A stretch of 64,000 nucleotides of DNA. Source: Desulfonatronovibrio magnus (GTDB taxonomy: Bacteria; Desulfobacterota; Desulfovibrionia; Desulfovibrionales; Desulfonatronovibrionaceae). Location of the stretch: contig NZ_KN882181.1 in assembly GCF_000934755.1 (NCBI RefSeq), positions 33,524 to 97,523 of the forward strand, read 5' to 3'. Of this stretch, positions 33,127 through 38,405 are shown in pieces. The notes under the pieces are model-generated. The model saw only the letters and a list, made by a program, of their open reading frames with translations, did no database searches and had not been told where the DNA came from. How positions within the stretch are numbered: the first letter of the stretch is position 1; each line of letters starts with the position of its first letter. A program made the translations under genes and the position numbers.

Positions 33127-35448
33127 TCAAAAACTCCTGTAAGTATGAAGAGAAAAGTTTAAAATCTTATAAACCCTTATCCCGCCATGGGTATCTTCTA
33201 TCCTGTACCCCATTTTGATCATGGTTTGTCTGAGTTTGTCAGCTGAAGCGTAGTCTTTCTCGTCTCTGGCCTTGTTTCTCTGTACAAGCAAATCTTTAAG
33301 CTCTCGAGGGTATTCAGCCTCTGCCAAGGGCATATTATTCCAATCCAGAATGCCCAGAATGGAGTCCATTTTTTTCAGGACTGTCAGACTTTCACTGGCC
33401 TGATCCTTACCAATTTTACCTTCTTCAACAAGGTTGCGTACTTTTTTGCAAAAAGAAAAAAGATCAGGCCAGAACTTATAAACAGACAGGTCGTCTTCAA
33501 CAGATTTGAAAAGATTCTGTTCCAGTTCTTTGCACAATGCGTTTACATTATCCTTAGAAATATCAGTGGTCGGAAATTTTTCCACAATAAGTGTAGCGCA
33601 TAAATCCTGAATCCTATGCCAGTTTTTAACCCACATGGCCAGATTTTTTTCTGAATAGGAAAGGGTTTTATGATAAGATCCTGAAAGCAGCCAGACACGC
33701 AAGGCAGAATAACCAGCTTCAGCAGCCATGGTTTTAATTCCAGGCAGGTCAAGGCCATCAGCTTCGCCGCGCACGCTCTGAGCTACAGCCCAGCATTGCG
33801 GAATCAATGCCCTGGCCCCTTTCCAGATACTTCTCAGGTTGTCTAAATGGGGGAAAAAATGAGTTTCGCCTGCCAGTACAAGGTCCAGCCGGTCATGATC
33901 AAGGGAAGCAGCCATCTGAAGATACCACGAAGGCCGGACATTGCCCCATCTGGTTTTCAGAACATTGTCCTCCTTGAGATCCTTAAGACTGGCTCTCTTG
34001 TACAGGGTAAAATCCCTGGGACTGTCCTTGACATAATCCTCAAGATCAACGGTCTTGCCGGAAATAATTGTTGCAGGATCAATCCCGGCTAACTTGCCGT
34101 ATTCCTGGTCCCGGCCAACATCAAAATACACAGATCTGAGCTTTTCATAGGCCAGGCCTCTGGAAAGCAGCTTTGAGCAGAGTTCCTGGCCCTGTTCAAG
34201 CTTGTCTGAAGCCGGAACAAACTGAAAACCGGAACAAAGGTTAATATCCCTGGAAATAGCCTCAAGCTCAGAAATAACAGTATGCTTGAAGTCTTTGAGT
34301 GTTGACTGCCCTGCCCTGACCGCTTCCAGGGTTGTATCGTCAAAATCAGCCACTGCAGCCAAAGGCACAGGTTTGAGCCCCTTATGAATCAGATATCTGC
34401 AGGCTGTGTCCAGAAAGACCGCCCTTCTCCAGAAGTCAGGGTCATCTGTAAAGCTGGTCCTGGGGCCGATGGTGAACAGTACAGGCCTGCCTGATGCTGC
34501 CTGAAAGGACACCTTTTTTCTGGTCTTTAGATCAAAAAACTTGATTCCGTCCTGTTCAGGCATTTTGAAAAGAGGAGTGCTCAGATATCTTTCCCCGCTG
34601 TCAGGAAAAATAGTCACTATGAGGCCGGATTCCATTTCCCGTGCAAGCTTGAGGCTCCCTGCCATGGCCGCTCCGGAACTCATGCCCACAAAAAGCCCTT
34701 CCTTGCGGGCCAGTTCCCGACACATGGCAAAGGCATCTTCATCATTTACGTTAGCCACTACATCTAAAAATTTTTTATCATAAATGCCTGGAGGGTAAGA
34801 TTCCTGCATGTTTTTCAGGCCCTGAATCTTGTGCCCCGGATAAGGCTCAATTCCAATGCAGCGCACATGAGGGGCTAACTCGCGCATCCTGCGGGTAATG
34901 CCCATTATGGTTCCGGTAGTTCCCAGACAGGCAGTAATGTGAGTCACCTGACCTTCAGTTTGCTCCCAGATCTCCGGGCCGGTTGTCTGATAGTGGGCTT
35001 CAATGCTGGCTGGATTGTTGAACTGATCCATGAGCACGTACTTATCCGGTTCTTCCCTGGCCATACGGTATGCCTCTTCAATGGCCCCGTCTGTGCTCAA
35101 ATGACCGGGAGTGAGAACAATCTCAGCACCATAAGCCCGCATTATTTTCTTTCTTTCCTCTGAAGCTGCTGCAGACATGATCAGCTTTATGGGATATCCC
35201 TTGACAGCACAGACCATGGCCAGTCCAATTCCGGTATTGCCGGAAGTGGCTTCAATGACGGTTTTACCCTTAGTTAGCTCACCGGACTTCTCAGCGCGCT
35301 CAATCATGGCCAGAGCAACCCGGTCCTTAACCGATCCTCCAGGATTCTTCATTTCTAACTTGGCCATGATGCTGACCCTGGGATTGACGGAAATATTTCT
35401 GATTTCTACCAGAGGGGTGCTGCCAATGAGGGAAAGGAGATTATTCAT
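33127..35448 (-). CDS. Cysteine synthase fused to a degenerate cysteinyl-tRNA synthetase-like domain
   Basis: 773 residues. Residues about 1-300 are a complete O-acetylserine sulfhydrylase: PLP lysine in PGGSVKDR, ATSGNTG, the GTTGTIMG phosphate loop and SSGAAM. Residues about 315-773 follow the whole CysRS fold up to the C-terminal helical domain (ARDEKDYASADKLRQ). All catalytic signatures are lost: the CGPTVYD Cys is replaced in FTIGPRTS, HIGH is absent, the zinc ligands are replaced (WYLQMAAS, FPHLDNL), and KMSKS is replaced by sequence around GLDLPG. It should make cysteine but not charge tRNA; the second half may be regulatory or structural. The start at 35448 is chosen by homology over 35544. 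Confidence 0.9.
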   Translation of the reverse strand: MNNLLSLIGSTPLVEIRNISVNPRVSIMAKLEMKNPGGSVKDRVALAMIERAEKSGELTKGKTVIEATSGNTGIGLAMVCAVKGYPIKLIMSAAASEERKKIMRAYGAEIVLTPGHLSTDGAIEEAYRMAREEPDKYVLMDQFNNPASIEAHYQTTGPEIWEQTEGQVTHITACLGTTGTIMGITRRMRELAPHVRCIGIEPYPGHKIQGLKNMQESYPPGIYDKKFLDVVANVNDEDAFAMCRELARKEGLFVGMSSGAAMAGSLKLAREMESGLIVTIFPDSGERYLSTPLFKMPEQDGIKFFDLKTRKKVSFQAASGRPVLFTIGPRTSFTDDPDFWRRAVFLDTACRYLIHKGLKPVPLAAVADFDDTTLEAVRAGQSTLKDFKHTVISELEAISRDINLCSGFQFVPASDKLEQGQELCSKLLSRGLAYEKLRSVYFDVGRDQEYGKLAGIDPATIISGKTVDLEDYVKDSPRDFTLYKRASLKDLKEDNVLKTRWGNVRPSWYLQMAASLDHDRLDLVLAGETHFFPHLDNLRSIWKGARALIPQCWAVAQSVRGEADGLDLPGIKTMAAEAGYSALRVWLLSGSYHKTLSYSEKNLAMWVKNWHRIQDLCATLIVEKFPTTDISKDNVNALCKELEQNLFKSVEDDLSVYKFWPDLFSFCKKVRNLVEEGKIGKDQASESLTVLKKMDSILGILDWNNMPLAEAEYPRELKDLLVQRNKARDEKDYASADKLRQTMIKMGYRIEDTHGGIRVYKILNFSLHTYRSF

Positions 35449-35556
35449 TGTTGTGCCAGGATAAAAATTATTGAATAATAAAGACAAACGGTTTAGATAA
35501 ATCCAGACGCTTATATTTTCAAGTAAAAAACAAGGGAGTTTCAAGTTTTATCAAAA

Positions 35557-36616: not shown

Positions 36617-37255
36617 ATGATAAATAAAGAACTTTACGATGATTATATTCAAGCTCTGCTCAAAGGAGACAGGCAGTACTGCTTTGAGCTTGTCAAGGAT
36701 CTGCTGGATAAGGATATATCCATTTATGATCTCTACATTCATCTCTTTCAAAGTTCTCTCTACCACGTGGGTCATCTCTGGGAAACTAACAAGATTTCTG
36801 TAGCAACAGAACATATGGCTACCTCCATCACTGAAGGTCTTTTATCTCTGACCTACCCCAAAATATTTTCAGCTGATCATAAAGGAAAAAAGGCTGTCAT
36901 CTCCTGCATTGCCAATGAATATCACCAGATTGGCGGGAAAATGGTGGCGGATATATTTGAGCTGAACGGGTGGGATGGCTATTTTCTTGGTGCCAATACT
37001 CCGTTAAATGAACTTATGGAAATGGTCAAAGACAAGCAGCCTGACATGCTGGCCTTATCCCTGAGCATATATTTCAATATGCAGTCTTTACATGATGTAA
37101 TAGGCAAGATCAAAGAGGTTTACCCTGAACTTAAAGTTATAGTTGGAGGTCAGGCCTTTCGCTGGGGTGGGCAGGATATTGGAAGCAAATTCAAAAATGT
37201 GCGTTATGTCCCTACAATTAATGACCTCGAAAAAATGCTGGTGAAAAATGACTGA
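36617..37255 (+). CDS. Stand-alone B12-binding protein with CarH-type photoreceptor signature
   Basis: The 212 residues hold a four-helix B12-binding-2 domain (about 1-85) and a Rossmann B12-binding domain (about 90-210). The first has W55-x9-E65-H66, exactly the W-x9-EH signature that caps adenosylcobalamin in light-sensing CarH. The second has E101-x-H103-x2-G106, with the His expected to ligate cobalt, instead of the DxHxxG of methyl-carrier corrinoid proteins. There is no DNA-binding domain. The next gene, a histidine kinase, overlaps by 8 bp. A B12- or light-dependent input to that kinase is inferred. No Shine-Dalgarno is visible. Confidence 0.88.
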   Translation: MINKELYDDYIQALLKGDRQYCFELVKDLLDKDISIYDLYIHLFQSSLYHVGHLWETNKISVATEHMATSITEGLLSLTYPKIFSADHKGKKAVISCIANEYHQIGGKMVADIFELNGWDGYFLGANTPLNELMEMVKDKQPDMLALSLSIYFNMQSLHDVIGKIKEVYPELKVIVGGQAFRWGGQDIGSKFKNVRYVPTINDLEKMLVKND

Positions 37256-38405
37256 CTTCAAAGCCATTAAGACCTGCAGCCATTCTCTGAGCCGCTACCT
37301 GTACCAGGATGCCTCCGTCATTTTGATTCTGATGGATTCAAAGGGTACAATTATTGAAGCCAACAGATATGCCAGAGAAATTATCAATCACGATATACTG
37401 GGTAAAAATATCACTGACTTTCTGGTGGATTTCTCCAATTCAATTGCACTAAGTGACTTGATTGACCAGAATGATGATGCTCATATGCTGAATGTAACCT
37501 CGTCGTCAGGCCTGCCCCAGACCTTTTATTTCAAATTTCTCCAACACGATGAAAATATACTCGCCATAGGTGAACTCAATCATGTTGAGGTGGAAAGTCT
37601 GCGCAAAAACCTTATGAGCCTCAATAATGAATTCAGCAATCTCAACAGGGAATTGCATAAGAAAAACGCCGAACTGGTCAAGCTGAATGATCTGAAAAAT
37701 CACTTTCTGGGCATGGCAGCACATGACCTGCGCAATCCCATAGGAGCTATTCAGAATTTAAGTGAATTTCTGCTGGAAGAGGCAGCTTCAAACCTTACTT
37801 CGGAACACCTTAAATTTATAAGCGTCATTAACACTTCCAGCCGTTTCATGCTTTCACTGCTTGACCAGCTTCTGGATATTGCAAGAATTGAGGCTGGCAA
37901 GCTGGATTTGGACATACAGCCAACAGATCTGCTTAACCTGATAAAGACCTGCGTTGAACTGAACAGAGTACTGGCTGACAAAAAGGGCATAAAGATTCAG
38001 TTTCATCACTATGAAGCATTCCCTGAAATAAAGCTTGATGCCATGAAGATTGAACAGGTTATGCACAATCTTTTATCCAATGCAATAAAATTTTCTCAGC
38101 CTGGGACCAGGGTCTATGTTAGCGCTTTTTTAAGTGATGATCATGTTACTGTTTCGGTAAAGGATGAAGGTCCTGGAATTCCCAGGGAAGATTTAGACAA
38201 GCTATACAAGCCTTTCTCACGAACAAGCGTTCAGGTTCCTGCAGGCGAAAAAAGTACAGGGCTTGGGCTGGCCATAGTGCATAAAATCATTCTCGGGCAT
38301 TCTGGCAAGATATGGGTGGACAGTAAGGTGGGAGAAGGCTCGGTTTTTTCATTTTCAATCCCCTTAAAACACAGCAAAACTACCCGGAACCCGCAGCAGC
38401 CCTGA
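37248..38405 (+). CDS. PAS-domain histidine kinase coupled to the B12-binding protein
   Basis: A 385-residue soluble kinase: N-terminal PAS-like domain (about 20-110), coiled coil (about 112-150), HisKA with H159 in MAAHDLRNP, then HATPase with the N box (HNLLSNAIKFS), DEGPGIP and GLGLAIVHK. It lacks membrane helices and a receiver, so a separate response regulator must exist; none is adjacent. Its start lies inside the B12-binding gene. The 3' end overlaps the convergent pilB-like gene by 26 bp. Confidence 0.92.
   Translation: MTDFKAIKTCSHSLSRYLYQDASVILILMDSKGTIIEANRYAREIINHDILGKNITDFLVDFSNSIALSDLIDQNDDAHMLNVTSSSGLPQTFYFKFLQHDENILAIGELNHVEVESLRKNLMSLNNEFSNLNRELHKKNAELVKLNDLKNHFLGMAAHDLRNPIGAIQNLSEFLLEEAASNLTSEHLKFISVINTSSRFMLSLLDQLLDIARIEAGKLDLDIQPTDLLNLIKTCVELNRVLADKKGIKIQFHHYEAFPEIKLDAMKIEQVMHNLLSNAIKFSQPGTRVYVSAFLSDDHVTVSVKDEGPGIPREDLDKLYKPFSRTSVQVPAGEKSTGLGLAIVHKIILGHSGKIWVDSKVGEGSVFSFSIPLKHSKTTRNPQQP

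Follow-up and report, generated by a model that had tools for sequence, protein, structure and literature searches.

The window analysed here is a 64,000-nt stretch of DNA (contig NZ_KN882181.1, positions 33,524 to 97,523) from Desulfonatronovibrio magnus, a soda-lake sulfate-reducing bacterium whose 4.8-Mb genome is 97.5% complete and distributed over 134 contigs. Two overlapping genes in this window encode a free-standing B12-binding protein and a soluble sensor histidine kinase. Their features, in window coordinates, are the following:

36617..37255, + strand: free-standing B12-binding protein, 212 aa, with a four-helix cap and a Rossmann B12 fold (PF02607 and PF02310; AlphaFold2 model; nearest solved folds)
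36779..36814, + strand: W55-x9-E65-H66 motif (sequence; invariant in 52/52 relatives)
36917..36934, + strand: E101-x-H103-x2-G106 B12 motif (sequence; invariant in 52/52 relatives)
37248..38405, + strand: soluble sensor histidine kinase, 385 aa, without membrane helix (Pfam HisKA and HATPase_c)
37323..37475, + strand: PAS-like domain at the kinase N-terminus, aa 26-76, weakly matched (PAS_9 at E 1.9e-4, short of the curated cut-off)
37584..37697, + strand: helical linker from PAS to HisKA, about aa 113-150, the best-conserved stretch of the kinase N-terminus (conservation profile and partner-specific HMM)
37722..37724, + strand: phospho-acceptor His159 in the H-box HDLRNP (sequence and HisKA match)

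Both open reading frames and their 8-nt overlap agree with the preliminary description: the kinase ATG lies at 37248 and the stop codon of the B12 gene at 37253-37255. The start codon of the B12 gene matches that of its relatives, whose proteins open with MI(N/T/S)xxLY. An EamA transporter gene lies 184 nt away on the 5' side, and on the 3' side a PilB/GspE-type ATPase gene on the opposite strand overlaps the end of the kinase gene. A search for promoters and terminators gave nothing above the shuffled background. Elsewhere in the window, an 805-aa ORF on the minus strand (33127-35544) combines a cysteine synthase of the CysM type (aa 38-326) with a divergent cysteinyl-tRNA synthetase (aa 335-792) that scores far below the CysS cut-off; a same-genus relative (G001) carries a 764-aa ORF in the corresponding position.

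The kinase has the make-up of an orthodox sensor histidine kinase, with a HisKA domain carrying the H-box (aa 150-217) and a HATPase_c domain (aa 264-374). Pfam finds no receiver domain in it, and a membrane helix is not indicated because the highest 19-residue hydropathy is 1.18. Thus, the earlier depiction of a PAS kinase free of receiver and membrane helix stands, the PAS match being weak.

Cap and B12 motifs are invariant among relatives

The B12 protein consists of a B12-binding_2 domain (PF02607, aa 7-76, E 3e-15) followed by a B12-binding domain (PF02310, aa 92-182, E 2e-16). These are its only Pfam domains, and a DNA-binding domain, including one of the N-terminal MerR type, is absent. 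None of the 52 aligned relatives deviates at G52, W55, E65, H66, E101, H103, G106, G125, S148, G177, or G178. Since the residues typical of CarH are invariant across this set, the motif match of the B12 protein is not due to chance. Hence, sequence, Pfam, and conservation together bear out the two photoreceptor marks, and the missing DNA-binding domain, that the preliminary description had noted. In CarH, the W-x9-EH motif caps the adenosyl group, and this cap is a feature of known photoreceptors (PMC8156234).

Other positions are more relaxed. Position 150, the V/T of the SxV/T element, is S in 41/52 relatives and A or T in the rest. In the light state of TtCarH, the His beside the Trp takes over as upper ligand. 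The position of this His is occupied by Glu56 in the B12 protein, so its photochemistry may differ from that of TtCarH. The published SignatureFinder motifs for light-responsive CBDs are GxxW, EH, GxxH, and GxxxP, in a text that does not mention kinases (PMC11796333). The B12 protein has three of these four motifs and fails in GxxH, where Asn100 replaces the Gly, a residue found in just 4/52 relatives. Strict mining with this signature would therefore miss most of the B12-kinase family.

The B12 protein resembles photocobilins

A profile built from 63 relatives of the B12 protein matched the photocobilin 8j2w best (126 bits), followed by CtMerR (98 bits) and AbPcob (91 bits). The best entry of the methyl-carrier type scored 72 bits, and CarH, with 51 bits, fell below some methyl carriers; AerR was only a weak match (E 1.4e-6). 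The AlphaFold2 model (pLDDT 94.4) gave a predicted fold for which photocobilin, CtMerR, and CarH ranked at the top among solved structures, above methionine synthase. Moreover, the NCBIfam methyl-carrier matches of the B12 protein are far below cut-off, and two methyl carriers from the order to which D. magnus belongs (L027 and L030) have neither the W nor the EH residues. Judged by profile and predicted fold, the B12 protein groups with photocobilins, CtMerR, and CarH and not with methyl carriers, and its nearest solved relatives are photocobilins rather than CarH. The assignment as a methyl carrier, which the preliminary description had raised against its own reading, was looked for by profile and fold; it was rejected on both counts and on the motif.

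The kinase gene accompanies the B12 gene in many phyla

Relatives were picked by the B12 protein alone, which yielded 85 loci (80 named records, the window, and four further genomes). Enough downstream sequence to assess the pairing was available in 82 of them, and counts were made by hand from the locus tables. A kinase gene directly follows the B12 gene in 77 of these 82 loci, mostly overlapping it or within 30 nt; one gene intervenes in three, and the kinase is divergent or absent in two. According to database labels, mostly of metagenome-assembled genomes, the pair occurs in more than ten phyla, with loci labelled Desulfobacterota, SAR324, Bacteroidetes, Spirochaetes, Planctomycetes, Verrucomicrobia, Hydrogenedentes, Fibrobacteria, Riflebacteria, Sumerlaeota, Acidobacteria, Actinobacteria, and Balneolaceae. 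An operon of B12, kinase, globin, and regulator genes was also seen in L047 and L050, two contigs labelled Candidatus Methanofastidiosum (archaea) that may be binning errors.

A search with an HMM built on the kinase N-terminus matched 113 ORFs, 106 of which were called adjacent to a B12 gene; two or three of the other seven also lie beside one. This N-terminus thus forms a subfamily occurring almost only beside this B12 gene. In addition, distances between B12 proteins correlate with those between their partner kinases (r 0.58). The best of 500 permutations reached 0.30, although permutation ignores shared ancestry; a fairer control, the non-partner kinases of the same loci, gave r 0.22. The kinase pairing of the B12 gene is real.

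On the other hand, the linked orphan response regulator that the preliminary description had envisaged alongside a conserved pairing is found in many relatives and not in the window, where no receiver gene adjoins the pair. In those relatives, REC genes follow the pair and their outputs comprise GGDEF, LuxR, HD-GYP, and sigma-54 activator types. More than 150 REC domains are encoded elsewhere in the D. magnus genome; a cognate regulator was sought both within the window and by comparison with the regulators of relatives, and there were too many receivers to single one out.

A photoglobin-like gene adjoins the pair in many relatives and was lost at this site in D. magnus

A gene of globin fold, encoding about 150 aa, adjoins the pair in 41/83 loci. 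This family has no Pfam or NCBIfam match and no sequence match in the PDB, and its alignment contains no invariant His (A3). Its model (pLDDT 95) has a fold near allophycocyanin, smURFP, and globin-coupled sensors, and it superimposes on the globin domain of photocobilin with Z 11.3 and an rmsd of 3.1 over 118 aligned residues. The same globin family is fused N-terminally to a B12 domain in L012, L018, L019, L021-L023, and L025. Globin fold and fusion together suggest that the separate globin is a photoglobin-like protein acting in trans, and it probably binds a bilin. Several of the photocobilin-like globin-B12 fusions of Desulfovibrionales (L012, L013, L018, L019, L021-L023, and L025) were seen beside kinase-like or PAS-coiled-coil genes.

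The D. magnus locus departs from this arrangement at one site:

38343..38404, + strand: junction without a photoglobin-like gene (blastn comparison of window and L032; gene order)

A relative from the same genus (G001) has an identical gene order with a globin gene between the kinase and ATPase genes. The kinase-ATPase junction, including this gene, measures about 590 nt in G001 versus about 62 nt in the window. Hence, the globin gene has been lost at this site. In the rest of the D. magnus genome, the globin is represented only by a frameshifted fragment on contig C27. The window pair therefore has to do without an intact protein of this globin family, unless the gene lies in the missing 2.5% of the genome. 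A GAF protein with a C-terminal four-Cys module, CSSCK...FSHGxCxxC, is encoded just upstream of the fragment (L128, on C27, 4910-5608; L123, about 1440-1640). In response regulators from relatives, for example in L099, the same module stands behind the receiver.

A heme oxygenase is also associated with this system. In L084, the product of the gene at the globin position is a heme oxygenase extended by a second half; fusion genes of this type adjoin the pair in L083, L098, and L108. D. magnus carries an ortholog of the fusion on contig C3 (49443-50738). Among 120 related genomes, the fusion is clear only in G000 (D. magnus), G006, G055, and G045, and all four have a CarH-type B12 gene. Pfam heme oxygenase was not found in most of the globin-bearing genomes examined (G001, G004, G005, and G009). 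The domain fused to the heme oxygenase is conserved, spans about 230 aa, and has no assignment (RYGxRGxRF...AWLxTL...WLGxVLxxRGMP); it occurs at L125:7444-8742, L126:580-1848, and L127:1379-2668 and in L083, L084, L098, and L108. The C-terminal part of the fusion was considered as a candidate second photoglobin, but an hhalign comparison with the globin family aligned only 43 columns at a probability of 2.6%.

Discussion

The preliminary description proposed a free-standing CarH-type B12 sensor coupled to its own soluble kinase. Our results support this proposal from several sides: motif, profile, fold, pairing, kinase N-terminus, and correlated divergence. We consider that the pair probably constitutes a two-component B12 photosensor of the photocobilin type that is split, with light sensing assigned to a subunit of its own. 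The B12 protein would bind AdoCbl in the dark, with H103 as the expected lower ligand of the cobalt and W55, E65, and H66 capping the adenosyl group, and, like CarH and photocobilins, it would assemble into a head-to-tail dimer. AdoCbl can be made by the host, since a cobalamin adenosyltransferase is encoded in its genome. The B12 protein may dock on the PAS-HisKA helical linker of the co-translated kinase. We propose this docking site by analogy with standalone photocobilins, one of which has been reported to control a separate enzyme via protein contact (PMC10979010), and with AerR, for which a model of its contact with the PAS linker helix of CrtJ has been published (PMC9144470). Blue-green light would then break the Co-C bond, rearrange the cap, change the contact, and thereby switch kinase activity. 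In many relatives, the B12 protein would be joined by the separate photoglobin-like protein, which may widen the sensed range to red light.

The signal itself was left undecided in the preliminary description. In an alternative reading that we regard as unlikely, the pair senses the availability of AdoCbl or oxygen-damaged cobalamin, docking differs between the apo and the AdoCbl-bound form, and light sensitivity is incidental. The same pocket would indeed respond to B12 level, many loci have no linked globin, and most family members come, by their database labels, from anaerobes or stratified waters. However, globins of the phycobilin/photocobilin type and heme oxygenase fusions have no obvious role in B12-level sensing, and these associations favour light as the signal; the W-x9-EH cap, being a photoreceptor feature, argues in the same direction. 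Much less probable is that the domain binds heme or another tetrapyrrole and senses redox state or heme on behalf of the kinase. The SCHIC domain of AppA has the same fold switched to heme, and some operons carry heme oxygenase fusions. However, AppA SCHIC has the W of the cap replaced and the His shifted by two residues (PMC9144470), whereas the present family shows no variation in the cap or in the His of its B12 motif, and AerR matches the family profile only weakly. An ordinary methyl-carrier corrinoid protein beside a kinase by chance is the least credible reading, for despite a two-domain Pfam architecture and some NCBIfam matches common to methyl carriers, the same-order carriers lack the cap residues, photoreceptors come first by profile and fold, the genes around the pair in the window include no recognised methyltransferase, and many phyla have kept the pairing with the kinase.

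Returning to the split photosensor, we are evenly divided on a wider claim: that a three- or four-protein B12-plus-bilin two-component photosensor, made of a separate CarH-type B12 protein, a dedicated soluble kinase, either a separate photoglobin or a heme oxygenase fusion, and a response regulator, is spread over more than ten bacterial phyla, mostly in anaerobes of lit sediments and stratified waters, and would largely escape published signature mining because the GxxH Gly is usually replaced. A kinase gated by B12 would give two-component signalling a further class of chromophore, its sensor would be a detachable subunit attractive for optogenetics, and obligate anaerobes such as sulfate reducers would use B12 to see light. 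The system is directly testable, as cultured carriers exist (by database labels, Desulfobacter latus, Desulfatitalea alkaliphila, Solidesulfovibrio aerotolerans, Alkalispirochaeta alkalica, Desulfogranum marinum, and Desulforhopalus vacuolatus).

Several elements of this proposal are already known, namely free-standing B12 photoreceptors (AerR), photocobilins, and associations of photoglobin with B12 domains. Histidine kinases that act as photoreceptors have been reviewed with a focus on LOV, phytochrome, and rhodopsin types and with mention of BLUF and cyanobacteriochromes, but cobalamin does not occur in that review (PMC6798134). The literature searched contained no B12-gated kinase; Schneider et al. 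(2022), on photoglobin, may already note kinases in such neighbourhoods. The likeness to AerR/PpaA and AppA SCHIC consists in a separate B12-fold protein working through a PAS-containing partner. However, the sequence similarity is remote, the cap residues differ, and the partner is a transcription factor there and a kinase here. The BBAG-2 globins also have a separate globin gene beside a B12-binding gene and a link to heme oxygenase (PMC10151467); in the part of that report available to us, the cluster includes a pre-PcyA enzyme and no kinase pairing is described. The globins found here are putative bilin binders. CarH/LitR share the motif set (Wx9EH and ExHx2G...SxV/T...GG) and the fold. 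Unlike them, the B12 protein has no MerR DNA-binding domain, carries Glu56 and not His next to the Trp, and is expected to act via a kinase. Photocobilins (SasPcob and AbDPcob; PMC10979010) resemble it in the W/EH and E/D-x-H motifs and in the pairing with a photoglobin. In photocobilins the globin is on the same chain, whereas here the chain ends after the Rossmann fold, and B12 binding, globin, and kinase output are distributed over three proteins, the globin being present beside the pair in relatives only and D. magnus having no intact copy.
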